In this document: in pieces, positions 37,455-57,036 of the stretch
Position numbering within the stretch: the stretch's first letter is position 1
How the letters are laid out: the number at the start of each line of letters is the position of its first letter
The notes under the pieces: model-generated
What the model was told of the DNA's origin: nothing
What the model saw: only the letters and a program-made list of their open reading frames with translations
The model's database searches: none
NCBI RefSeq assembly: GCF_900187365.1
Contig: NZ_FYDG01000001.1
Coordinates: 186,001-250,000 of the forward strand
Length of the DNA stretch: 64,000 bases
From: Rhodoblastus acidophilus
Lineage (GTDB): Bacteria > Pseudomonadota > Alphaproteobacteria > Rhizobiales > Beijerinckiaceae
Direction of reading: 5' to 3'
Translations under genes and position numbers: made by a program

Positions 37455-38279
37455 TCAACCGGACGTCTGACCCGATCCGACATTTAGACAGGACGCCGCC
37501 CTGGTCAGAGCCGCCAGGACGTCGTCCGGCCGTTCGATGGTCAGCAAATGGCCGGCGCCCTCCAGAGCCACGATATGCGCGTCGGCGATCAGCCCGGCCA
37601 GCGCCTGCCCGGCCTTGAGCGGCGTCATCTGATCGCGCCCGCCGAGTATCAGGGTGGCGGGACAGCGCAGCGCCGCAGCGGCTTCGGCGCCGTTGGCATA
37701 GGCGGCGCAGGCGGCGAGATCGGCGTGCAGCACGCCGGGACCGGCCCGCTCCAGCAGGCGGCGCGCGCCGCCGAGCATCCACAGGCCGGGCGCAGGACCG
37801 CCGCCGAGCGTGGCGGTCGCGCCCAAGCCCCAGAGGCTGACCATGGCGATGGCGGCGTCATCATTGGCCGCCGCCGCGGCGAGCAGATCGGCGTGCACCG
37901 GCATGGCCGCCGCCGTTCCGATCAGCGCCAGCCCGGCGACGCGCTCCGGATGGCGCGCCGCCGTCTCCAGGGCGATCAGCGAGCCCATGCTGTGCCCGGC
38001 GATCAACGCGCGCCCGGCGCCGGCGGCCCGGATCAGCGCGGCCGTCCAATCCGCGAGTTCCTCGATGGAGCCGAGCGGCGGCCCCTCCGAGGCGCCATGG
38101 CCCGGCAAATCGACGGCGACCACGCGCAGGCCGCGGCGGGCGAGCGCGCGGCTCTGCAAGGCCCAGATCGTATGGTCCATCCCGGCGCCATGCAGCAGAA
38201 CGGCCAGAGGCTGCGCGGCGTCATGCGCGTATCCGCCGGTCCCGGCGAAAACCGCGCGGCGGTCGAGCGTCAGCTTCAT
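37455..38279 (-). CDS. Alpha/beta hydrolase
   Basis: The 274-residue enzyme has VLLHGAGMDHTIWALQSRAL (oxyanion region), VVAVDLPGHGASEG, the nucleophile elbow LIAGHSMGSLIALET, the acid region TLILGGRDQMTPL and the last His in LEGAGHLLTIERP. It is of the small-ester or C-C hydrolase type; the substrate is unknown. The ATG at 38279 overlaps the stop of the sulfhydrylase gene (ATGA), so both should be translated together and act in one pathway. Confidence 0.88.
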   Translation of the reverse strand: MKLTLDRRAVFAGTGGYAHDAAQPLAVLLHGAGMDHTIWALQSRALARRGLRVVAVDLPGHGASEGPPLGSIEELADWTAALIRAAGAGRALIAGHSMGSLIALETAARHPERVAGLALIGTAAAMPVHADLLAAAAANDDAAIAMVSLWGLGATATLGGGPAPGLWMLGGARRLLERAGPGVLHADLAACAAYANGAEAAAALRCPATLILGGRDQMTPLKAGQALAGLIADAHIVALEGAGHLLTIERPDDVLAALTRAASCLNVGSGQTSG

Positions 38280-39577
38280 GATCCGCCTCGTTGCGACGCG
38301 CGCAGCGCCTGTTTAAGATCGGCGACAATGTCCTCGGGCGCCTCCAGCCCGACCGACACGCGCACCATATCCTCCCCGACGCGGGCGGCGGCGAGCTGCT
38401 CCGGGCTCATCTGCGCGTGGGTCGTGCTGGCGGGATGGATCACCAGGGTTTTGGCGTCGCCGACATTGGCGAGATGGCTGGCGAGCCGCAGCGCCTCGAT
38501 GAATTTCACGCCGGCGGCGCGGCCGCCCCTGACGCCGAAGGTGACGACGGAGCCCGCCCCGCGCGGCAGCAGCTTTTGCGCCAGCGCGTGATCGGGATGA
38601 TCGGGCAGGCTGGGGTGATTGACCCAGGCCACGGCCTCGTGCGCAGCCAGCGCCTTGACGACTTCGGCGGCGTTCTCGACATGGCGCGGCATCCGCAGCG
38701 GCAGGGTCTCGACCCCGGTCAGCAGCCGCGACGCATTGTGCGGCGACAGGCAGGCGCCGAAATCGCGCAAGCCCACCGCCCGCGCCAGCATCGCAAAAGC
38801 GGCGGGGCCGAACTGTTCGGCGAAGACAAGACCCTGATAGCCGGCGCAAGGCTCGGTCAGAGTCGGGAATTTGCCGGAGGCGGTCCAGTCGAACCGGCCG
38901 GAATCGACGATGACGCCGCCGACGGCCTGACCGTGGCCGCCGAGCCATTTGGTGAGCGAATGCAGCACAAGGTCCGCGCCATGCTCGATCGGGCGCAACA
39001 GCCAGGGCGTGGCGAAAGTGTTGTCGATCAGCAGCGGCAGCCCGGCGGAATGGGCGATCGCCGCCACGCGCGGAATGTCGAAAACCTCCAGACCGGGATT
39101 GCCGATGGTTTCGCCCAGAATCAACCGCGTCTGCGGCGTGATCGCGGCGGCGAAGGCATCGGGGCGGCGCGGATCGACGAATGTGGTGGTCACGCCGAAG
39201 CGCGGCAGCGTCTGCGCCAGCAGGTTGACCGTGCCGCCGTAGAGCGCGGCGGAGGCGACGATGTGGTCGCCGGCGCCGAGCAGGGTGACGAGGGCGAGAT
39301 GCAGCGCCGCCATGCCGCTGGCGGCGCAGACCGCGCCGACGCCGCCTTCCAGCGCGGCGATGCGCTCCTCCAGCGCCGCCACGGTTGGATTGGAGATGCG
39401 CGAATAGAGATGGCCGGCGCGCTCAAGGTTGAACAGGCCGGCGGCATGGTCGGCGTCGGCGAACACATAGGAGGTGGTGTCGTAAACCGGCGTGGCGCGG
39501 GCGCCGGTGACGGGATCGGGACGCTGGCCCGCGTGCAGGCTCAGCGTTTCGAAAGCAGGCGGGCGGGGTGCGGGCAT
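38276..39577 (-). CDS. O-acetylhomoserine sulfhydrylase, second copy
   Basis: The 433-residue PLP enzyme has the same layout as the copy at 19393-20676: FETLSLHAGQRPDPVTGARA, PVYDTTSYVFADADHAAGLF, YSRISNPTVAALEERIAALEGG, LLIDNTFATPWLL and the PLP lysine in VLHSLTKWLGGHGQAVGG. It differs enough to suggest a different thiol or acyl-homoserine substrate. It lies between a PaaK-like ligase (12-base gap) and a hydrolase (overlap), an unusual company for a methionine enzyme. Confidence 0.9.
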   Translation of the reverse strand: MPAPRPPAFETLSLHAGQRPDPVTGARATPVYDTTSYVFADADHAAGLFNLERAGHLYSRISNPTVAALEERIAALEGGVGAVCAASGMAALHLALVTLLGAGDHIVASAALYGGTVNLLAQTLPRFGVTTTFVDPRRPDAFAAAITPQTRLILGETIGNPGLEVFDIPRVAAIAHSAGLPLLIDNTFATPWLLRPIEHGADLVLHSLTKWLGGHGQAVGGVIVDSGRFDWTASGKFPTLTEPCAGYQGLVFAEQFGPAAFAMLARAVGLRDFGACLSPHNASRLLTGVETLPLRMPRHVENAAEVVKALAAHEAVAWVNHPSLPDHPDHALAQKLLPRGAGSVVTFGVRGGRAAGVKFIEALRLASHLANVGDAKTLVIHPASTTHAQMSPEQLAAARVGEDMVRVSVGLEAPEDIVADLKQALRASQRGGS

Positions 39578-47513: not shown

Positions 47514-48884
47514 ATGCCCAGGACACCCCGCCCGGCCGTGCTCGGACTGATCGGCAACACGCCCTTGATCGAAGCCACCCGCCTCGACACGGGGCCGTGC
47601 CAGCTGTTTCTGAAGCTGGAGTCGCAAAATCCCGGCGGGTCGATCAAGGATCGCGTGGGATTGTGGATGGTCGAGGCGGCCGAGCGCGACGGGCGGCTCA
47701 AGCCGGGCGCGACCATTATCGAGGCGACCGCCGGCAACACTGGCCTGGGCCTGGCGCTGATCGCCCGCGCCAAGGGCTATCGCCTCGTTCTGGTCGTCCC
47801 CGACAAGATGGCCGCCGAAAAAGTCTTGCAATTGAAGGCGCTGGGCGCGGTCGTGCATGTGGTCCGGTCCGACGTCGGCAAGGGCCATCCCGATTATTAC
47901 CAGGATTTCGCGGCGCGCATCGCCGAGGAGACCGGCGCCTTCTATGTCAACCAGTTCGGCAATCCGGCCAATCCCGCCGCGCATGAAGAATCCACCGGCC
48001 CGGAAATTTTCGCCCAGATGAACCATGACGTCGACGCCATCGTCTGCGGCGTCGGCTCGGGCGGCACCCTCACCGGGCTGACACATTTCTTCCGCCGCGC
48101 CAGCCCGAAAACCGGATTCGTGCTGGCCGATCCCAAGGGATCGATTCTCGCCAATTATGTGCGGACGGGACGCATCGGCGTCGCCGGCTCCTGGATGGTC
48201 GAGGGCATCGGCGAGGATTTCGTGCCGCCCATCGCCGATCTCACCGGCGTCACGGCGGCTTATGAAATCCCCGATTCCGAAAGCTTCGCCGCCGCCCGCG
48301 AGCTTTTGCGCGCGGAGGGCGTGCATGGGGGATCGTCCACGGGCACGCTGCTCGCCGCCGCCCTGCGCTATTGCCGCGAACAGACCACGCCCAAGCGCGT
48401 GGTCACGCTGGTGTGCGACACCGGCACGCGCTACCTCTCGAAAGTCTACAACGACAACTGGATGATCGACCACGGCCTGCTGCCGCGCAAGACGTTCGGC
48501 GATCTGCGCGACCTGATCGCGCGGCGGTTCGACGAAGGCGGCGTCGTCAGCGTCACGCCCTCCGATCCGCTGCAGACCGCCTTCGTGCGCATGCGCTACG
48601 CCGAAGTCTCGCAGCTGCCGGTGATCGACGGCGGCCGCATCGTCGGGCTGCTCGACGAAACCGACATCCTGCAGCGGGTGCGGGCCAATCCCGCCAATTT
48701 CGGCACGCCCTCCGGCGAAGCCATGACCACCCATCTCGAAATCCTCTCGCCCCGCGCCGGTTTTGGCGCGCTGCAAGCGGTGCTCGATCGCGGGTTGGTC
48801 GCCATCGTCGCCGAAGGCGACGTGTTTTACGGCCTGATCACCCGCTTCGACCTTCTCAATCATCTGCGCCTCAAGGCGGCCTGA
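47514..48884 (+). CDS. Cystathionine beta-synthase with CBS domains
   Basis: The 456-residue enzyme should join homocysteine and serine to cystathionine. The PLP domain (residues 1-320) shows LGLIGNTPLIEATRL, the PLP lysine in LESQNPGGSIKDRVGLWMVE, IEATAGNTGLGLALIA, and VGSGGTLTGLTHFF for phosphate binding. The C-terminal part is a CBS pair (VVSVTPSDPLQTAFVRMRYA, LPVIDGGRIVGLLDETDIL, GLVAIVAEGDVFYGLITRFD), which often binds adenosyl ligands such as SAM. A cysteine synthase activity cannot be ruled out. It is two bases from the gamma-lyase gene, forming a reverse-transsulfuration pair just before the corrinoid operon. Confidence 0.9.
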   Translation: MPRTPRPAVLGLIGNTPLIEATRLDTGPCQLFLKLESQNPGGSIKDRVGLWMVEAAERDGRLKPGATIIEATAGNTGLGLALIARAKGYRLVLVVPDKMAAEKVLQLKALGAVVHVVRSDVGKGHPDYYQDFAARIAEETGAFYVNQFGNPANPAAHEESTGPEIFAQMNHDVDAIVCGVGSGGTLTGLTHFFRRASPKTGFVLADPKGSILANYVRTGRIGVAGSWMVEGIGEDFVPPIADLTGVTAAYEIPDSESFAAARELLRAEGVHGGSSTGTLLAAALRYCREQTTPKRVVTLVCDTGTRYLSKVYNDNWMIDHGLLPRKTFGDLRDLIARRFDEGGVVSVTPSDPLQTAFVRMRYAEVSQLPVIDGGRIVGLLDETDILQRVRANPANFGTPSGEAMTTHLEILSPRAGFGALQAVLDRGLVAIVAEGDVFYGLITRFDLLNHLRLKAA

Positions 48885-48886
48885 CC

Positions 48887-50062
48887 ATGAACATGACCTC
48901 AAGGATCAAACCGGGATTCGGCACGCGCGTCATCCACGCCGGGCGCACGCCCGATCCCTCCACCGGCGCGCTGATGCCGCCGATCTACGCCAATTCGACC
49001 TATGAGCAGGAAAGCCCCGGCGTCCACAAAGGCTTCGACTACGGCCGCTCGCACAATCCGACGCGTTTCGCGCTAGAGCGGCGGCTGGCGGATCTGGAAG
49101 GCGGCTCCAAGGGCTTCGCCTTCGCCTCGGGCCTCGCGGCCATCGCCGCCGTGCTGGAGCTGTTGCAGCCGGGCGATCATCTGATCGCCGGCGACGATCT
49201 CTATGGCGGCACCTACCGCCTGCTGGAGCGGGTGCGGGCGCGCAGCGCCGGACTGAACGTGTCCTATGTCGATCTGACCTCGCCCGCCGCCCTGCGCGCC
49301 GCCCTGCGCCCCAACACACGCATGGTTCTGGCGGAAACCCCGACCAACCCACTGCTTCGCCTGGTCGATCTAACGGCGGTGGCGGAGATTTGCCGCGAAG
49401 CGGGCGTGCTCGCCGTCGCCGACAACACGTTCGCCACGCCCTGGAACCAGCGGCCGCTGGAGCTTGGCTTCGACATTGTCGTGCATTCCACCACCAAATA
49501 TCTCAACGGCCATTCCGACGTGATCGGCGGCGCGGCGATCGTCGGCCCCGACGCCGATCTCGCCGAGCGCGTCGGTTTCCTGCAGAACGCCGTCGGCGCC
49601 ATCGCCGGGCCGTTCGACGCCTTCCTGACCCTGCGCGGGGTGATGACGCTGGACGTGCGGATGCGCCGGCATTGCGACAACGCGCTCGCCGTCGCCTCCT
49701 GGCTGGAGAGCCATCCCAAGGTGCGGCGCGTCATCTATCCGGGGCTGGCGTCGCATCCCCAGCACGCGCTGGCGCGGCGGCAGATGCGTGCCGGCGGCGG
49801 CATGATCTCCGTCGATCTCGCCACCGATCTCGCCGGCGCGCGCCGATTCCTCGAATCCGTGCGCGTGTTCACGCTGGCCGAGAGCCTGGGCGGCGTCGAA
49901 AGCCTGATCGAACATCCCGCGTTGATGACCCATGCCACCATCCCGCCGGAGCGGCGCGCCGAGGCCGGCATCAGCGACTCGTTGGTGCGCCTGTCGGTCG
50001 GAATCGAGGAGGAGGCCGATCTGGTCGCCGACCTCGCCGCGGCGTTGGCGCGGGTCGATTGA
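48887..50062 (+). CDS. Cystathionine gamma-lyase or gamma-synthase
   Basis: The 391-residue PLP enzyme of the Cys/Met metabolism family has FGTRVIHAGRTPDPSTGALM, the YDYGRSHNPTRFALE-like block (FDYGRSHNPTRFALERRLAD), GDDLYGGTYRLLE, VADNTFATPWNQRPLELG and the PLP lysine in VVHSTTKYLNGHSDVIGG. Paired with a cystathionine beta-synthase, its probable job is cleavage of cystathionine to cysteine, alpha-ketobutyrate and ammonia. Gamma-synthase activity is the alternative. A perfect hairpin follows its stop at 50071-50094. Confidence 0.88.
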   Translation: MNMTSRIKPGFGTRVIHAGRTPDPSTGALMPPIYANSTYEQESPGVHKGFDYGRSHNPTRFALERRLADLEGGSKGFAFASGLAAIAAVLELLQPGDHLIAGDDLYGGTYRLLERVRARSAGLNVSYVDLTSPAALRAALRPNTRMVLAETPTNPLLRLVDLTAVAEICREAGVLAVADNTFATPWNQRPLELGFDIVVHSTTKYLNGHSDVIGGAAIVGPDADLAERVGFLQNAVGAIAGPFDAFLTLRGVMTLDVRMRRHCDNALAVASWLESHPKVRRVIYPGLASHPQHALARRQMRAGGGMISVDLATDLAGARRFLESVRVFTLAESLGGVESLIEHPALMTHATIPPERRAEAGISDSLVRLSVGIEEEADLVADLAAALARVD

Positions 50063-50217: not shown

Positions 50218-50469
50218 ATGGCCGACATTTCCTCCTGCGCCGAACGCGTTTCGGCCGCCTCTCCCTGCGCGGGCTGTCCCGCCGATTGTCTGGAAGCCTG
50301 CTTCAACGACGCCATCAGCGCCGATGCGGAAGGAGGCGTGCGCATTCTCGCCGACAATTGCGCGGGCTGCGGCGCCTGCGTCCCCGTCTGCGAACCCGGC
50401 CTGATTCATCTGCACGAAGGAATCGCCCGCATCGTCCAGCCCAAACCCGTTTCGCCGGTTCGCGCCTGA
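50218..50469 (+). CDS. Small two-cluster ferredoxin
   Basis: The 83-residue protein has two cysteine groups: SPCAGCPADCLEAC (C-x2-C-x3-C-x3-C, residues 17-28) and NCAGCGACVPVCEP (C-x2-C-x2-C-x3-C, residues 50-60). The second is a normal [4Fe-4S] motif; the first has one extra residue between the second and third Cys. The fold is probably a bacterial 2[4Fe-4S] ferredoxin. As the first gene of the corrinoid operon it is a good electron donor candidate for the RACo-like activator that re-reduces Co(II) corrinoid. Confidence 0.8.
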   Translation: MADISSCAERVSAASPCAGCPADCLEACFNDAISADAEGGVRILADNCAGCGACVPVCEPGLIHLHEGIARIVQPKPVSPVRA

Positions 50470-50502
50470 CCGGCCCCCCAAGCCCCACAGTGGAGTGACC
50501 CC

Positions 50503-51165
50503 ATGTCCGACGACCAGAGAAGACTTTACGAGCAATTGGCGACCGCCGTGTTCGAACTCGACGAGAAGCTCGCCACGATTCTGGCGCAGGAAGTGCTGGA
50601 TCGCGGTTACGACGCCTGGCAAGCGGTCGAGCGCGGCCTGCTGGAGGGCGTCAACCGGGCCGGCAAACTGTTCGACGAGGAGGAATATTTCGTCCCCGAA
50701 CTGCTGATCGCCGCCGACGCCATGTATGCCGGCCTCGCCATTTTGCGCCCGCACATCAAGACGCACCAGACCGGCTTCAACCGCCGCGTCGTCATCGGCG
50801 TCGTCCAGGGCGACACCCACGACATCGGCAAGAATCTGGTGCGCATCATGCTGGAGGTCGCCGGCTTCGAGGTGCACGATCTCGGCCGCGACGTGCCGCC
50901 GCAAAAATTCGTCGAGACGGCGATCGCGGTGAAGGCCGACGTCATCGCTTTGTCCACGCTGATGACCACCACGATGGAGCGCATGGGCGAAGTGGTTTCG
51001 ATTCTCGAAGCCGAAAAGGTGCGCAACCGCTTCAAGGTGATCGTCGGGGGATCGCCGCTGTCGCAGCAATTCTCCGACCGCATCGGCGCCGACGGCTACG
51101 CGCCCAAGGCCGCGCAGGCCGTCGAACTGGCCAAGCGCCTCGTCGGATTGAGCAACGCCGCATGA
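50503..51165 (+). CDS. Corrinoid (B12-binding) methyl carrier protein
   Basis: The 220-residue protein carries the methyl group on a cobalt corrinoid between methyltransferases. Residues 1-90 form the helical cap (B12-binding-2), with ALERGLLEGVNRAGKLF-like helices (here AVERGLLEGVNRAGKLFDEE). The Rossmann B12 domain follows with GDTHDIGKNLV, in which His106 of D-x-H-x-x-G is the lower cobalt ligand, then S-x-L (STL, 151-153) and GG (182-183). It belongs with MtaC/MtbC/MttC and the corrinoid proteins of O-demethylases. It is the only corrinoid carrier in the operon. Its stop overlaps the next start. Confidence 0.95.
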   Translation: MSDDQRRLYEQLATAVFELDEKLATILAQEVLDRGYDAWQAVERGLLEGVNRAGKLFDEEEYFVPELLIAADAMYAGLAILRPHIKTHQTGFNRRVVIGVVQGDTHDIGKNLVRIMLEVAGFEVHDLGRDVPPQKFVETAIAVKADVIALSTLMTTTMERMGEVVSILEAEKVRNRFKVIVGGSPLSQQFSDRIGADGYAPKAAQAVELAKRLVGLSNAA

Positions 51166-52241
51166 CCATCTCCATCCGCACCGAAACCCGCGAGGAGCTG
51201 ACGCCGCTGGAGCGCGTCGTGCTGGCCTTGCAATACAAGAAGCCCGACCGCGTTCCCGCCGCGCCGCTGGTCTGCGGCGCCTCGTGCCGGGTGCTCGGCT
51301 ATTCCTACGACCGCTGGTCGCAGGACCCGAAGGTGGCCGTCGCCAGCCTGCTGGCGGCGCAGGATCTGATCGAGTTCGACGGCTTTCTCACGCTGGTCGA
51401 TCTGTCGGTCGAGGCTGAGGATTTCGGGCAGGAAGTGATCTTTCCGGAACGCAGCACGGCCCTGCCGAATTTCGACAATCCGTTCATCAAAACAGCCGAC
51501 GATTACATCAAGGTCAAGCCGGTCGATCCGCACAAATCGCGGCGCATGTCCACGGTGATCGAAATCGTGCGCGGGCTGGTGGAGGCGCGCGGCGACCGCG
51601 TGCCGACCATGGGCTTCGTCTATGGCCCGCTCGGCGTGCTGTCGCAGATTCGCGGCCATGCCGAACTGTTCAAGGACGTGATCCGCCATCCCGACCGGGT
51701 GCTGGAGGCGGTGCATACGATCAACCAAGTGCTGATCGAATACGCCAAGGCGCAGATCGAGGCGGGCGCCCACGCCATCGTGCTCGACCCGCTCTATTCC
51801 TCCGCCAGCATTTTGAAGAAATCGACCTGGGTGAAATTCGAGGCCGAGATTTTCAAATCCGTAGCCGACGCCATCCGCGACGCCGGCGTGCCCGTGATCG
51901 TGCACAATTGCGGCGGCGGCGTCTATTTCGACGCCGTGCTCGAACACATCAACCCCATCGCCATTTCCCACGCCTATCCCGCCCATGGCTCCGCCGATTG
52001 GCAGGAGCACGCCGCCAACTGGGCCAAAAAGGTGGTGAGCATCGGCGTGGCCGATCCCGCCAAGGTCGGCCATGAATTCTCCCAGGCGCAGGTGCTGGAG
52101 GATTGTCGCGCGCAGATCGAGACGTTCGGCGTCGCGGAAGGCGGGTTCATCCTGTCGAGCGGCTGCGAGTTTCCTCCCAACGGCAATCTTCTGTCCGCCC
52201 GCACCATGGTGCAGGCGGCGCGGCTTTACGGGCGATATTGA
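51162..52241 (+). CDS. UROD-family corrinoid methyltransferase 1
   Basis: The 359-residue protein has the uroporphyrinogen decarboxylase fold used by MtaA/MtbA- and CmuA-type methyltransferases. The zinc site pattern H-x-C...C is seen as VIVHNCGGG (His248, Cys250) and LSSGCEFPPN (Cys335). The start PLERVVLALQYKKPDRVP is typical of the family. It is the most divergent of the three copies: it lacks the VICTGG segment shared by the other two and has a longer insert around residues 85-125. That makes it a candidate for the substrate-specific enzyme (methyl donor side), but this is inference. True heme-pathway function is unlikely in this setting. It overlaps the corrinoid gene by four bases. Confidence 0.88.
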   Translation: MTISIRTETREELTPLERVVLALQYKKPDRVPAAPLVCGASCRVLGYSYDRWSQDPKVAVASLLAAQDLIEFDGFLTLVDLSVEAEDFGQEVIFPERSTALPNFDNPFIKTADDYIKVKPVDPHKSRRMSTVIEIVRGLVEARGDRVPTMGFVYGPLGVLSQIRGHAELFKDVIRHPDRVLEAVHTINQVLIEYAKAQIEAGAHAIVLDPLYSSASILKKSTWVKFEAEIFKSVADAIRDAGVPVIVHNCGGGVYFDAVLEHINPIAISHAYPAHGSADWQEHAANWAKKVVSIGVADPAKVGHEFSQAQVLEDCRAQIETFGVAEGGFILSSGCEFPPNGNLLSARTMVQAARLYGRY

Positions 52242-52243
52242 GC

Positions 52244-53290
52244 ATGACTCTCACTCGCCGCGAACGGTTCTTGCGCGCCCTGGCGCATCAGCCCGTGGAC
52301 AGGCCGCCAGTGATTTGCACCGGCGGCAGCATGACCGCGACGCCGGAGCAGGTCGTGGCGCTTTCCGGCCATACCCTGCCGGAAGCGCATGGCGACGCCG
52401 CCGCCATGGCGGGACTGGCCCTGGCGGCGGCCCGCATCACCGGTTTCGAATCCGTCGGCGTGCCCTTGTGCGTGACCGTCGAGGCCGAAATTTTCGGCGC
52501 GCAGATCGACCTTGGCGACGCCCGAACCGAGGCGCGCATCGTCCGCGAGCCCCATACGTCGGTCGTGGACGTGGTTGCGCCTCCGGTCGAGGAATTGCTG
52601 CGGCGCGGACGCGCCGCCGTGTCGGTGGAGGCGGTGCGGCTGCTGGCGCGCGACGCCGGCGATCTGCCGATTATCGCCAATCTGATCGGCCCCGTCAGCA
52701 TCGCCGCTTCGGTGGTCGAGCCGATTGCGTTCCTGCGCGAATTGCGCACCCGGCCGCAAGAGACGGCGACGCTGTCCGCCCATGCGACCGACTTCCTGAT
52801 CGCCTGGGCGCGGCGATTGATCGAAGCGGGCGCCGACGCCATCGCGATCCATGAGGACACCGCCACGCCCGCGCTGGTCGGCCCCCGCACGTTCGAAACG
52901 GCCGTGTTTCCGCATCTGCAACGGCTGGTCGCGGCGATCCACGCCGCCGGCGGGCGCGCGCTGCTGCACATGTGCGGCGCGCTCGGCAAATCGGCGACCT
53001 CCGTGGCGCGGCTCGATCTCGACGGCTACATCCCCGACGCCTCGCTGTCCCCCGCCGAACTGCGTGAGGCGCTGCCGGGCGTGGCGCTGATCGGCAACAT
53101 CAGCACCTTCCTGCTGCACCAGGGCCAGCCGGCGCCCATCGCCAAACTGGCGGCGCGGCTCGCCGGCCCCGGCGGCTTCGACGCGCTGTCGCCGACCTGC
53201 GGCATGTCCAGCATCACGCCGCTCGAAAACATCCGCGCCATGACTCTTGGCGCACAAAACTTATGCGAACAGGAGAGCCTGCATGTCTGA
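52244..53290 (+). CDS. UROD-family corrinoid methyltransferase 2 (MtbA-like)
   Basis: The 348-residue protein is a close relative of the third copy. It starts RRERFLRALAHQPVDRPPVI with CTGGSM, has FESVGVPLCVTVEAEIFGAQ, and a zinc-type pattern in LLHMCGALGK (His242, Cys244) and SPTCGMSS (Cys319). This layout is that of methylcobamide:thiol methyltransferases such as MtbA and MtaA, which pass methyl groups between a corrinoid protein and coenzyme M. The thiol used here is unknown. The start ATG lies two bases after the preceding stop, and the end overlaps the next gene by eight bases. Confidence 0.88.
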   Translation: MTLTRRERFLRALAHQPVDRPPVICTGGSMTATPEQVVALSGHTLPEAHGDAAAMAGLALAAARITGFESVGVPLCVTVEAEIFGAQIDLGDARTEARIVREPHTSVVDVVAPPVEELLRRGRAAVSVEAVRLLARDAGDLPIIANLIGPVSIAASVVEPIAFLRELRTRPQETATLSAHATDFLIAWARRLIEAGADAIAIHEDTATPALVGPRTFETAVFPHLQRLVAAIHAAGGRALLHMCGALGKSATSVARLDLDGYIPDASLSPAELREALPGVALIGNISTFLLHQGQPAPIAKLAARLAGPGGFDALSPTCGMSSITPLENIRAMTLGAQNLCEQESLHV

Positions 53291-54308
53291 CATGGCGCCG
53301 CGCGAACGCCTGAACCGCGTTCTCGCCAATCAGCCGGTCGATCGCGCGCCCGTGATCTGCACCGGCGGCATGATGAACGCCGCCGTGACCCAGGTGATGG
53401 ACGAAAACAGCCCGACCCTGCCGGCGGCGCATTTCGACCCCGAGGGCATGGCGGAGCTGGCGCAACGCGTCCACGCCGCCACCGGCTTTGAAAATCTCGG
53501 CGTGCCCTTCTGCATGACGGTCGAACCGGAAATTTTGGGAAGCCGCATCGATCCGGGCACGTTGTCCTGCGAGCCGAAAATCGCCGAGGAAGCGTTCGCC
53601 TCCTGCGGCGCGGTCGAGATCCGCGACGTGAAAAAAATCATCCGCGAGGGGCGCATCGCCACCGTGGTGCAGGCCGCGCACCATCTGAAAAAACGCAATC
53701 CCGACACGCCGGTGATCGCCAGCCTGTCCGGCCCGGTCAGCACTGCGGCTTCCGTCGTGACGCCGCTGACCTTTCTCAAGGAATTGCGCACGCAGCCGCA
53801 GGACGCCCATCGCGTGCTCGACTATGTGACGCGGCTGTTGGTGGAATATGCCCGCGAGGTCATCGACAACGGCGCCGACGTCATCGCCATCGGCGATCCC
53901 ACCGCGACCGGCGAAATTCTGGGGCCGCGCATTTTCGGGGATTTCGCCGTGCGTTATCTCAACCAGCTCTGCGACGCCGTGCACGCCAGCGGCAAGCAGG
54001 TCATCGTGCATATCTGCGGCGACATGTCGAAAAGCCGCAACCAGCTCGCCAACATCCACGCCGACGCCATCAGCGTGGACGCGCTGGTCAATCTGAAGAA
54101 GCTCAAGGAAGATTTTCCGCAGATCAACACGATGGGCAATGTCAGCACCGCCCTGCTCGAATTCGGCGAGGCGGACAAGGTTTCGCGCAACACCGCGCGT
54201 CTCATTCGCGACGGCATCGACATCATCTCGCCGGCCTGCGGCCTGAGCACATCGACCGGTCTGCACAACATTCGCGCGCTCACCGAAACCGTGAAGGGAA
54301 ACGCGTAA
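53283..54308 (+). CDS. UROD-family corrinoid methyltransferase 3 (MtbA-like)
   Basis: The 341-residue protein shares PRERLNRVLANQPVDRAPVI, the CTGGMM segment, FENLGVPFCMTVEPEILGSR and the SISTAASVVTPLTFLKELRT-type region (here GPVSTAASVVTPLTFLKELR) with copy 2, and has the pattern VHICGDMSK (His243, Cys245) and SPACGLST (Cys319). The pair probably arose by duplication. They may act on different thiols or as a heteromer. It overlaps copy 2 and the activator gene (TAATG). Confidence 0.88.
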   Translation: MSDMAPRERLNRVLANQPVDRAPVICTGGMMNAAVTQVMDENSPTLPAAHFDPEGMAELAQRVHAATGFENLGVPFCMTVEPEILGSRIDPGTLSCEPKIAEEAFASCGAVEIRDVKKIIREGRIATVVQAAHHLKKRNPDTPVIASLSGPVSTAASVVTPLTFLKELRTQPQDAHRVLDYVTRLLVEYAREVIDNGADVIAIGDPTATGEILGPRIFGDFAVRYLNQLCDAVHASGKQVIVHICGDMSKSRNQLANIHADAISVDALVNLKKLKEDFPQINTMGNVSTALLEFGEADKVSRNTARLIRDGIDIISPACGLSTSTGLHNIRALTETVKGNA

Positions 54309-56008
54309 TGGCGCAGGTGCATTTCCGTTCGCATGACATCAGCGTCGAAGTCGAACAGGGCGCATCGCTGCTCGACGCGGCGCGGCGCGGGCGCATCCGG
54401 CTCGACGCGCCCTGCAATGGCGCGGGCACTTGCGGCAAATGCAAGGTGCGCCTAGACGACGCCGCCCGCGACGCCGCCCATGTCGTGGATTCCGCCAAAT
54501 TGTCGGAAGCCGAGCGGCGCGAAGGCTTCGTGCTGTTGTGCACGACTCTGGTCGACGGCGACCTCGCCCTCGACCTTCCGGTCGGCGCCGAACACGGCCT
54601 GAAAATTCTCGAAGACGGCCAGCAGATCGACCTGCCGTTGTCGCCCTGGATCGCCAAGCGTCATTCGCCCGAACGCGACGTCACCGAACTGCTCGCGGGC
54701 GGGCAGGCGATCGCGGAGGAGCGCGGCGACACTACGCCCTACACCTATGGCCTTGCGGTGGACATCGGCAGCACGACGCTGGTCGCCGCGCTGATCGACC
54801 TCAACACCGGCGCGCGCGTCAATTCGGGCTCGGCCCTCAACCCGCAGGCGCGCTACGCCCAGGACGTGCTGTCGCGCATCAAGCTCGGCTCGACGGCGGA
54901 GGGGCTGGAGCTGCTGAGCCGGGAAGTCATCTCGGAAATCAACCGCCTGATCGGCGCGCTGGTGGACGAAGCCCGCATTCCGCGCCGCCGCATCTATGAA
55001 GCGGTGTTCGCCGGCAACACCTGCATGCTGCATCTCGCCGCGCGGGTCGATCCCGAGCCTTTGGGCCGCTATCCCTACACGCCGACGCTGACGGGCGACG
55101 CGCATCTGTCCGCCAAATCGCTCGGGCTTGCGATCGCGAAGACCGGGCTGGTTTATGTGCCGCCGGTGGTCTCGGGCTTTGTCGGCGCCGACATCACCGC
55201 CGGCATGTTGTCCACCAGTCTGGCCGATCTTCAGGGCGTCACCCTGTTCGTCGACATCGGCACCAACGGCGAAATGGCGCTGGCCCGCGACGGCCTGTTA
55301 CAGGCGACCTCCACCGCCGCCGGCCCGGCGTTCGAGGGCATGAACATTTCCTGCGGCATGAGGGCGGCGCGCGGCGCCATCGAGCGGGTGTCGCTGACGG
55401 GCGGCGACGTGCATGTGCAGACCATTGGCGACGCCCCGCCGGTCGGCCTGTGCGGCAGCGGCCTGCTCGACGCGGTGGCGGAACTGGCTGTGCATGGCGT
55501 GGTCGAAACCTCCGGGCGGTTCACCAAAAACCGCGCCGCGCTGCCGTCCGCTCTTCAGGCCCGCTTCGCCAAGCGCGACGGCAAGCCGGCGTTCCATCTC
55601 ACCGATGAGATCTATCTGTCGCAGGGCGACATCCGGCAGGTGCAGCTCGCCAAGGGCGCGGTGCGCGCCGGCATTGACGTGCTGCTGCGCCGCAACGGCC
55701 TCGACGCGGCGCAGGTGGACCGCGCGCTGATCGCAGGTTCGTTCGGCTATCATCTCACCGTGCGCAGCCTGATCGACATCGGCCTGTTCCCGCCGGAGTT
55801 CGACGGCAAGGTCACCTATGTCGGCAATAGTTCGCAAACCGGCGCCGAGGCGCTGCTGACCCACGCGCCCAGCCGGGCGAGGCTGGCGGAACTGGCGCGC
55901 GCCGTCGAGGCGGTGGAGCTGGCCAATGACGAAGCCTTCACCAAGATCTTCGTCGCGGCCATGGCTTTTCCCCGGCCCGAGCGGGCGGCGCTCGATGATG
56001 TGGCGTGA
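54308..56008 (+). CDS. RACo-like reductive activator of corrinoid protein
   Basis: This 566-residue protein should reduce inactive Co(II) corrinoid to Co(I) with ATP. An N-terminal [2Fe-2S] ferredoxin domain has Cys36, Cys42, Cys45 and Cys78 ([20 protein letters not shown]). The rest is an ASKHA ATPase of the DUF4445 type ([62 protein letters not shown]). The architecture matches RACo and the activating enzymes of acetogen O-demethylases rather than RamA, which has C-terminal [4Fe-4S] clusters. The start overlaps copy 3, and the GTGA stop overlaps the CobW gene. Confidence 0.93.
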
Positions 56009-57036
56009 CCGGCGTGGACCCGCGCCTTCCCGTCACGCTGCTGACCGGATTTTTGGGGAGCGGCAAGACCACGCTGCTGTCTGGGCTGCTGCGCGAAAAC
56101 GCGTCGGGACCCTTCGCCATCGTCATCAATGAATTTGGCGAAGTCGCGCTGGATCAGGATCTGGTCGGGCGCGTCGATGGCCAAGTGACGGTGATGAGCG
56201 GCGGCTGCCTGTGCTGCGCCATCGGCGGCGACCTCGCCGCGACGCTGCTCGACTTGCACAAGCGGCGCGCGGCGCAGCCGTTCGCGCGCGTCGTGATCGA
56301 AACCAGCGGCCTCGCCGATCCCGGCCCGCTGCTGGCGCCCTTCGCGGAGGACATCAGGCTCGCCCGCCTGTTCCGCGTCGATGGCGTGGTCGCGGTGGTG
56401 GACGCGTTGCAGGGATTGCGCGAACTCGGCCGGCGTCGCGTCTGCATCAAGCAGGTGGCGCTGGCCGACCGCATCGTCTTGAGCAAGAGCGACATCGCCG
56501 CGCCGCTGGCGGTCTCCCGCCTGCGGGACAGGCTGACGGAAATTAATCCGTTCGCGCCGCAACTCATCGTCAGTCACGGCGTCGTGGACAGCGGCTGGCT
56601 GTTGCAGCCCCCCGTCCGTCCTGCGGCCGCCCCGGCCCGCCAATGCGCGGACAACGCGCGACATGAACCGGGACATGCCGACGACATCGCGGCGTTTTGC
56701 CTGACATTCGACGCGCCGCTGCGCTGGGACTCGTTTGTCGAGGCCTGGACCCGGCTGACGGACGCGCATGGCGATGCGATCCTGCGCCTCAAGGGATTGC
56801 TGGATATTGAGGGCCATCCGGTCGCCGTCCATGGCGTGCGCCGCCTGCTGCACCCGCCGGAAACGCTGGCGCAATGGCCCGACGCCGCGCACGGCTCGCG
56901 CCTCGTGGTGATTGCGGAGGATTTGACCGACGCGGACGTGCGTGCTTGCTTTTCCGGCCTCGACGACTTCGCGGAGACGCGCGCAAGCTCAACCGACGCA
57001 GCGCGCGGCGTCGGCCAAGTCCGCTGTATCGGCTGA
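56005..57036 (+). CDS. CobW/COG0523-family GTPase
   Basis: The 343-residue protein is a putative metallochaperone. The P-loop is [10 protein letters not shown] (residues 15-24). The metal-binding C-x-C-C lies in [10 protein letters not shown] (Cys68, 70, 71). ETSGLADP and SKSD (in place of NKxD) follow, and the CobW C-terminal domain begins near residue 225. A linker with Cys and two His ([17 protein letters not shown]) may also bind metal. Its place as the last, overlapping gene of the corrinoid operon suggests delivery of zinc to the methyltransferases or cobalt to corrinoid, which is inference. The start is GTG at 56005. Confidence 0.9.

Follow-up and report, generated by a model that had tools for sequence, protein, structure and literature searches.

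A seven-gene corrinoid methyl-transfer operon of Rhodoblastus acidophilus: a compositional variant of mlp gene clusters, probably for sulfur salvage

The window analysed here is a 64,000-nucleotide stretch of the genome of Rhodoblastus acidophilus (4.71 Mb, 98.5% complete). At 50218-57036 it carries seven + strand genes which, from their open reading frames and Pfam matches, encode a ferredoxin, a corrinoid carrier protein, three UROD-type methyltransferases (labelled UA, UB and UC in gene order), a RACo-type activase and a CobW GTPase. In its gene content the operon is a variant of the mlp gene clusters, a kind of system already known, and the most likely role suggested by its sequence and context is thiol or thioether methyl transfer for sulfur salvage. 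Its genes are as follows.

50218-50469, + strand: ferredoxin-like protein, 83 aa (4Fe-4S matches in Pfam), the presumed electron donor of RACo
50503-51165, + strand: corrinoid carrier protein, 220 aa (B12-binding_2 and B12-binding in Pfam; DTHDIG motif)
51162-52241, + strand: UA, a divergent UROD-type methyltransferase with a lineage of its own (URO-D 176 bits; clade 100/100)
52244-53290, + strand: UB, a UROD-type methyltransferase, sister lineage of UC (URO-D 194 bits; clade 100/100)
53283-54308, + strand: UC, an Mlp3-type, MtaA-like methyltransferase (URO-D 249 bits; NF004889 375 bits)
54308-56008, + strand: RACo-type corrinoid reductive activase (Fer2, Raco_middle and RACo_C_ter above cut-off in Pfam)
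56005-57036, + strand: CobW/COG0523 GTPase, a presumed zinc chaperone (cobW and CobW_C above cut-off in Pfam)

An earlier interpretation made from the letters alone (the sequence-only reading) had described a same-direction cluster of seven genes, the last six overlapping or nearly touching, and both points are borne out: each frame lies where that reading placed it and has the expected Pfam domains. The ferredoxin and carrier genes are separated by 33 nt; thereafter the junctions are overlaps of 4 (carrier/UA), 8 (UB/UC), 1 (UC/RACo) and 4 nt (RACo/CobW), and a gap of 2 nt between UA and UB, the latter starting at the ATG at 52244. The seven genes are probably co-transcribed. The carrier is 50-63% identical to carriers of other such clusters (for example 50% at locus L019 and 63% at L040). 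The first cluster motif of the ferredoxin reads CX2CX3CX3C, as it does in all five orthologues printed; the usual form is CX2CX2CX3C. A tRNA search of the window returned none.

All three methyltransferases retain the H-x-C...C zinc pattern and the carrier retains D-x-H-x-x-G, in the form D-T-H-D-I-G, as the sequence-only reading had observed. Amongst the sequences inspected, H-x-C and the later Cys are kept in 11/11 UA, 7/7 UB and 10/10 UC proteins (the R. sphagnicola UB reads HMCN at the H-x-C site of the alignment), and H248, C250 and C335 of UA are invariant across 26 aligned sequences. None of them has a Cys zinc ligand replaced by a carboxylate or another residue, the trait of O-demethylases of the Odm and Vdm type. 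All six UB rows have HED at the site of GDP in purple-bacterial UC, so UB may differ from UC in its substrate. With the Pfam URO-D cut-off at 23.9 bits, all three proteins belong to the family; the NCBIfam model NF004889 (cut-off 244 bits) marks UC (375 bits) and UB (288 bits) as MtaA-like, with UA under the cut-off at 111.6 bits. AlphaFold2 models of UA and UB (mean predicted local distance difference test score 92.3 and 90.5) show the expected fold and give no indication of substrate. The top match of UB is Methanosarcina mazei MtaA (template modelling (TM) score 0.91, 30% identity); the UA model superimposes on the same protein with a TM score of 0.85 by target length at 19% identity, and matches bacterial UROD proteins about equally well, the best E-value being to one of these.

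Relatives were collected by a search of genome contigs with UC aligned to an Acetoanaerobium homologue, the best 80 of 359 confirmed loci being kept; as the loci were found through UC, a UA or UB remote from UC lies outside the sample, and related loci are not independent. In a 55-row IQ-TREE, UC falls in a clade of 12 rows (100/98) that includes Acetivibrio, Geobacter and Clostridium ljungdahlii (L068) proteins, and UB in one of four rows (100/100), seen in this sample only in purple bacteria. UB and UC form one clade (99/95), which C. ljungdahlii Mlp3 and Mlp1 join at 100/99 and MtaA at 99/93. UA forms a clade of eight rows (100/100) on a long branch apart from the others. The tree of UROD proteins, put forward with the sequence-only reading as a check on it, places UB and UC with Mlp3-type proteins next to MtaA and leaves UA as a separate lineage. 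In this tree one outgroup row lies on the wrong side, so that the outgroup is not confined to one side of a branch; the rows given the Mlp2 label from their position do not unite with C. ljungdahlii Mlp2 in a single clade; and it was the gene order in L151, not a locus tag, that served to identify C. ljungdahlii Mlp1-3. A 145-row FastTree, its rows dereplicated at 88% identity and MtaA added, gives the same picture for UA, UB and UC. An origin of UB as a recent purple-bacterial copy of UC is disfavoured, with an approximately unbiased (AU) test p of 0.0215 for UB held with purple-bacterial UC. Rhodoblastus UA groups with that of the gammaproteobacterium Thiodictyon and not with that of the alphaproteobacterium Rhodopila (98/80), which suggests horizontal transfer in the history of UA.

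The mlp gene clusters were described in a 2023 preprint by Kountz and Balskus (PMC10418091), the available text of which proposes a role in methyl-selenide or methyl-sulfur metabolism and links more than 90% of clusters with methyl-selenium and some 10% with methyl-sulfur or methionine salvage. The operon fits the general definition given there, including the lack of a tetrahydrofolate methylase within 20 kb, and the main novelty claim of the sequence-only reading, that of an undescribed methyl route and architecture, therefore fails. Type I clusters are those with both Mlp2 and Mlp3 in that text. Mlp3 is represented by UC and UB, which share the clade of C. ljungdahlii Mlp3 (placed by the L151 gene order); as to Mlp2, UA lies outside the Mlp2 rows in the best tree, yet a joint clade was not rejected (AU p 0.065 and 0.18). 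Non-selenium clusters are, per the preprint, always accompanied by Mar-like genes, and the window's genome shows the traits of that group: it has MarD and no selD above cut-off, selD being the only selenium gene searched. The host departs from the reported distribution, which is no part of the definition; version 4 of the preprint speaks solely of obligate anaerobes, and this genome has four COX1-family and two photosynthetic reaction-centre places. The combination of UA, UB and UC with CobW and a ferredoxin, and without a close Mlp2, is nevertheless not that of the clusters which the available text describes, and the words CobW, ferredoxin, Proteobacteria and phototroph are absent from that of version 4. 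The word Rhodoblastus occurs once in version 3, so its authors may have seen a Rhodoblastus cluster.

Three further loci were noted. An isolated UROD protein, one of the Mlp2-like group, is encoded some 85 kb upstream of the operon (L023:9118-10176, near 151 kb of the contig), with relatives in R. acidophilus MO and R. sphagnicola; the surrounding 19 kb gave no match to a carrier or activase. Strain MO has a second, selenium-type mlp cluster (L025, contig positions 76000-90142). In its vicinity lie a double-cubane protein and a NifS-type desulfurase (both above cut-off) and a formate-dehydrogenase-like gene (by eye), with selD about 17 kb away on that contig, which ends before an activase is visible. 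In C. ljungdahlii, L068:7147-13796 holds a corrinoid gene, UA, the C-terminal part of CobW, DUF1638, UC, RACo and a further UROD protein. This locus is separate from L151 and was rejected as the C. ljungdahlii cluster of the preprint, the matching gene order being in L151.

The gene neighbourhood recurs more than chance would allow. The seven genes stand in identical order, the ferredoxin orthologues included, in three more Rhodoblastus loci (R. acidophilus DSM 142, R. acidophilus MO and R. sphagnicola DSM 16996) and in three Rhodopila loci from metagenome-assembled genomes (MAGs), and five of the seven occur in Thiodictyon on a contig of 5.6 kb, which breaks off on either side. The Rhodospirillales MAG locus L030 is arranged otherwise, with a corrinoid gene, UC and RACo, and an Mlp2-type gene apart from these. 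Orthologues of UA (92-96% identity) occur in 4/199 genomes of the family sample, all Rhodoblastus and making up four of the ten same-genus genomes in that sample; at E <= 1e-40 an even sample of the class gave one genome in 385, the window's own. Plasmid records searched at E <= 1e-20 gave only one distant match, in a chromosome-sized Acetoanaerobium record.

Within the 80 loci, CobW is encoded no more than 5 kb from UC or UA at 16 of the 21 with UA and at none of the 59 without it; restricted to loci with 5 kb on both sides of UC, the counts are 15/19 and 0/36. The link of COG0523 to corrinoid methyltransferases is already in print (PMC2770081, in the text available); what is added is that in this sample the link depends on UA. 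The 16 loci (eight Acetobacterium, three Rhodoblastus, three Rhodopila, Heliophilum, and C. ljungdahlii with the C-terminal part only) come from few genera and thus represent far fewer independent lineages. Of the five loci with UA but no CobW near by, L034 is cut off by the end of its contig, and a CobW of 42% identity is encoded on a different contig of that genome; for L040, L084, L085 and L092, a CobW_C search of the genome found nothing. The idea that Sporomusa-type loci have a CobW just beyond the edge of the locus was rejected, since those genomes have no CobW_C match, as was that of CobW as a part of all such clusters, given its absence near the 59 UC loci without UA. The Acetoanaerobium locus L019, outside the 80, has CobW without UA.

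The sequence-only reading had remarked that three zinc-thiol-type enzymes share one carrier with no pterin methyltransferase in the window, and this extends to the whole genome. A Pterin_bind search found two places, one being MetH and the other a 273-aa frame whose length fits the FolP type, both on other contigs or about 390 kb away; there is thus neither a tetrahydrofolate methylase within 20 kb of the operon nor a pterin methyltransferase just outside the window, and a methyl-carrier:H4folate methyltransferase of the pterin-binding family is found neither in the operon nor, beyond those two, in the genome. MetH consists of five domains, one of them an activation domain of its own, and should therefore not need RACo. 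The genome also encodes a methylthio-alkane reductase (Mar), whose D subunit scores 948 bits to PDB 9FMG, identified as Mar in the available text of PMC12552129. Mar (L119) is one of 21 nitrogenase-family places (L115-L120 among them), which by eye include Nif-, Vnf- and Anf-like sets and a second NifEN-like pair near metH; two further pairs are of unclear kind by eye, one (L118) near TonB/BtuF-like genes and the other (L120) near a radical SAM gene and an ABC transporter. The pair near metH was considered as Mar and rejected, as its genes, read by eye, look like a nifENX set.

Genes of sulfur amino-acid metabolism lie in the window outside the operon.

47514-48884, + strand: cystathionine beta-synthase-like protein (best NCBIfam match cysta_beta, 350.7 bits, under the cut-off of 510)
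48893-50062, + strand: cystathionine gamma-lyase/synthase-type protein (best NCBIfam match 502.7 bits, slightly under the cut-off of 513)
38276-39577, - strand: metY-type O-acetylhomoserine sulfhydrylase (NF006004 742.5 bits, cut-off 636)

The first two, hereafter the cbs-cgl-like genes, directly precede the operon both here and in DSM 142, by matches under the curated cut-offs. In DSM 142 an Rrf2-family regulator stands above them, its best-scoring named relative being CymR (under cut-off). In R. sphagnicola, genes for an NMT1-type ABC transporter, a CoA-transferase and an enoyl-CoA hydratase precede the ferredoxin; the Rhodopila locus L032 is followed by two rhodaneses, an ABC permease and an NtaA/DmoA monooxygenase; and A. 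dehalogenans (L095) has cysK and metY above cut-off. A CBS/CysK- or CGL-family gene is found within 8 kb of UC at 27/47 loci with full 8 kb flanks (10/16 with UA, 17/31 without), at 13/33 shorter loci and at 40/80 overall, which adds to the sulfur context.

On balance we favour the view that the operon encodes a corrinoid-dependent S-methyl transfer system which salvages sulfur from methylated sulfur compounds. RACo, supplied by the ferredoxin, would bring the carrier to the Co(I) state by reduction; one or more of the UROD enzymes would then demethylate a methylated thiol or thioether onto the carrier, releasing a thiol or sulfide. Candidate donors are methanethiol, dimethyl sulfide, a methylthio compound and methionine. 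Another UROD enzyme would hand the methyl group to a second thiol (sulfide, methanethiol or homocysteine are candidates), CobW would load zinc, perhaps mainly for UA, and the cbs-cgl-like genes and metY would interconvert homocysteine, cysteine and sulfide. Each reaction, the division of labour between UA, UB and UC, and the delivery of zinc are inferred from the sequences. This reading is favoured because the operon fits the mlp definition, because UB and UC group with Mlp3-type proteins beside the S-methyltransferase MtaA and H-x-C...C is kept, because the only Pterin_bind proteins are MetH and the FolP type and selD is missing from three of the four Rhodoblastus carriers, and because of the sulfur-gene context and the methylthio-alkane reductase of the genome.

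Several observations weigh against it. UA stands at a distance from the S-methyltransferases known so far, with 19% identity to MtaA in the structure alignment. The cbs-cgl-like genes do not adjoin the operon in MO and lie about 6 kb upstream of it in R. sphagnicola. The counts of CBS/CysK- or CGL-family genes near UC are raw ones, without a random background. Mar as a constant companion of the operon was rejected: MarD (at least 55% identity) is present in two of the four carriers, the window's genome and R. sphagnicola, and in none of seven other genomes of the genus, and was not found in DSM 142 or MO (Mar-like group IV-A was not searched separately). An Rfam search of the window and L020, L021, L022 and L032 (144,876 bases) gave no matches, and thus no methionine-type riboswitch.

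Most type I mlp clusters are proposed to salvage selenium, with methyl-selenides demethylated to free selenide, and the H-x-C...C pattern would fit this use too; moreover, the one Mlp2 assayed in the available text of PMC10418091 methylates selenide, and R. acidophilus MO has selD. Above cut-off, though, selD was found in two of 11 Rhodoblastus genomes, MO and G524, and no UA was found in G524; the window's genome, DSM 142 and R. sphagnicola gave none. In MO, selD shares its contig with the second, selenium-type cluster, which contains a corrinoid gene, a gene of Mlp2 type and one for an Mlp3 akin to the C. ljungdahlii protein, and lies near the double-cubane protein. UC groups with Acetivibrio proteins, kin of the preprint's non-selenium-group organism in the text available, and selenium salvage seems to us very unlikely here. 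A different product is envisaged if transfer from the methyl-carrier to homocysteine is the main reaction, the operon then acting as an alternative methionine synthase beside MetH. The adjoining cbs-cgl-like genes speak for it, as does DUF1638, near 12/21 loci with UA and 4/59 others, which Phaeobacter requires in order to make methionine with a split synthase (PMC5764234, in the text available); it would also be compatible with sulfur salvage were the donor a methylated sulfur compound. Yet a five-domain MetH is present, the Pfam matches include no folate-to-carrier enzyme in the operon, and none of the seven UA loci from purple bacteria within the set of 80 has DUF1638 near by, so that this alternative, too, appears improbable.

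The divergence and long branch of UA, and a fold that matches bacterial UROD proteins about as well as MtaA, would allow that UA uses an O-methyl or methyl-halide substrate and that UB or UC transfers the methyl group to a thiol. UROD-family O-demethylases replace a Cys, however, according to the available text of PMC10418091, and every UA inspected has His-Cys-Cys; the genome is also without a folate route for using the methyl group as carbon. We consider this the least probable alternative. Accordingly, the substrates that the sequence-only reading had listed are narrowed: a methylated thiol or thioether survives, methoxy compounds are disfavoured by H-x-C...C in all three enzymes on the preprint's argument, and methyl halides are unsupported. 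A rival of classification, itself compatible with sulfur salvage, is that the operon is an ordinary type I cluster in which UA is a fast-evolving Mlp2. The joint clade that the AU test did not reject leaves room for it; the best tree separates UA (100/100), and the L040 cluster holds both an Mlp2-type protein and UA, and we think it unlikely, if much less so than the others.

The sulfur-salvage reading admits a bolder and doubtful extension: that UA founds a lineage of corrinoid S-methyltransferases with its own CobW zinc chaperone, and that the purple-bacterial operon carries out thiol-to-thiol transmethylation. Methanethiol and homocysteine might, for example, give sulfide and methionine, or two methanethiol give dimethyl sulfide and sulfide, with Mar, where present, re-reducing the dimethyl sulfide. 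If true, phototrophs could live on methylated sulfur without the methyl group passing through folate. The mlp clusters are widespread, and their function rests, in the texts available, on one enzyme assay and archaeal selenium studies. UA and UB are two added lineages, and the link of UA to CobW is a concrete hypothesis of zinc delivery. The genus in which the variant occurs includes named strains (R. acidophilus DSM 142 and MO, R. sphagnicola DSM 16996) and offers a natural contrast: MO has a selenium-type cluster as well as the operon, and three carriers are without selD, so the sulfur and selenium hypotheses can be tested directly by growth.

The soluble coenzyme M methyltransferases of methanogens, MtaA, MtbA and MtsA, share their fold and zinc ligands with the enzymes described here, UB being 30% identical to M. 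mazei MtaA; their acceptor is coenzyme M, whereas that of the operon is not known to be. The SdmABC dimethylselenide system of Methanococcus likewise unlocks a methylated chalcogen with a corrinoid protein and at least two UROD-type methyltransferases, but it acts on selenium and belongs to a methanogen (PMC11097638, in the text available). Like type I mlp clusters, the operon combines several MtaA-like proteins of His-Cys-Cys type with one corrinoid protein and one Ram/RACE activase on one strand, has no folate methylase, and has sulfur-gene neighbours, as in the non-selenium group; it differs in having no close Mlp2, in the UA and UB lineages, in its ferredoxin and CobW, and in its phototrophic host with oxidase genes. 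The UA-containing clusters of acetogens (C. ljungdahlii L068, Acetobacterium L074 and L095) also bring together the carrier, UA, CobW, UC and RACo, and those of Acetobacterium have sulfur amino-acid genes near by; they differ in having DUF1638 and no UB, and in that only the C-terminal part of CobW is present in C. ljungdahlii.

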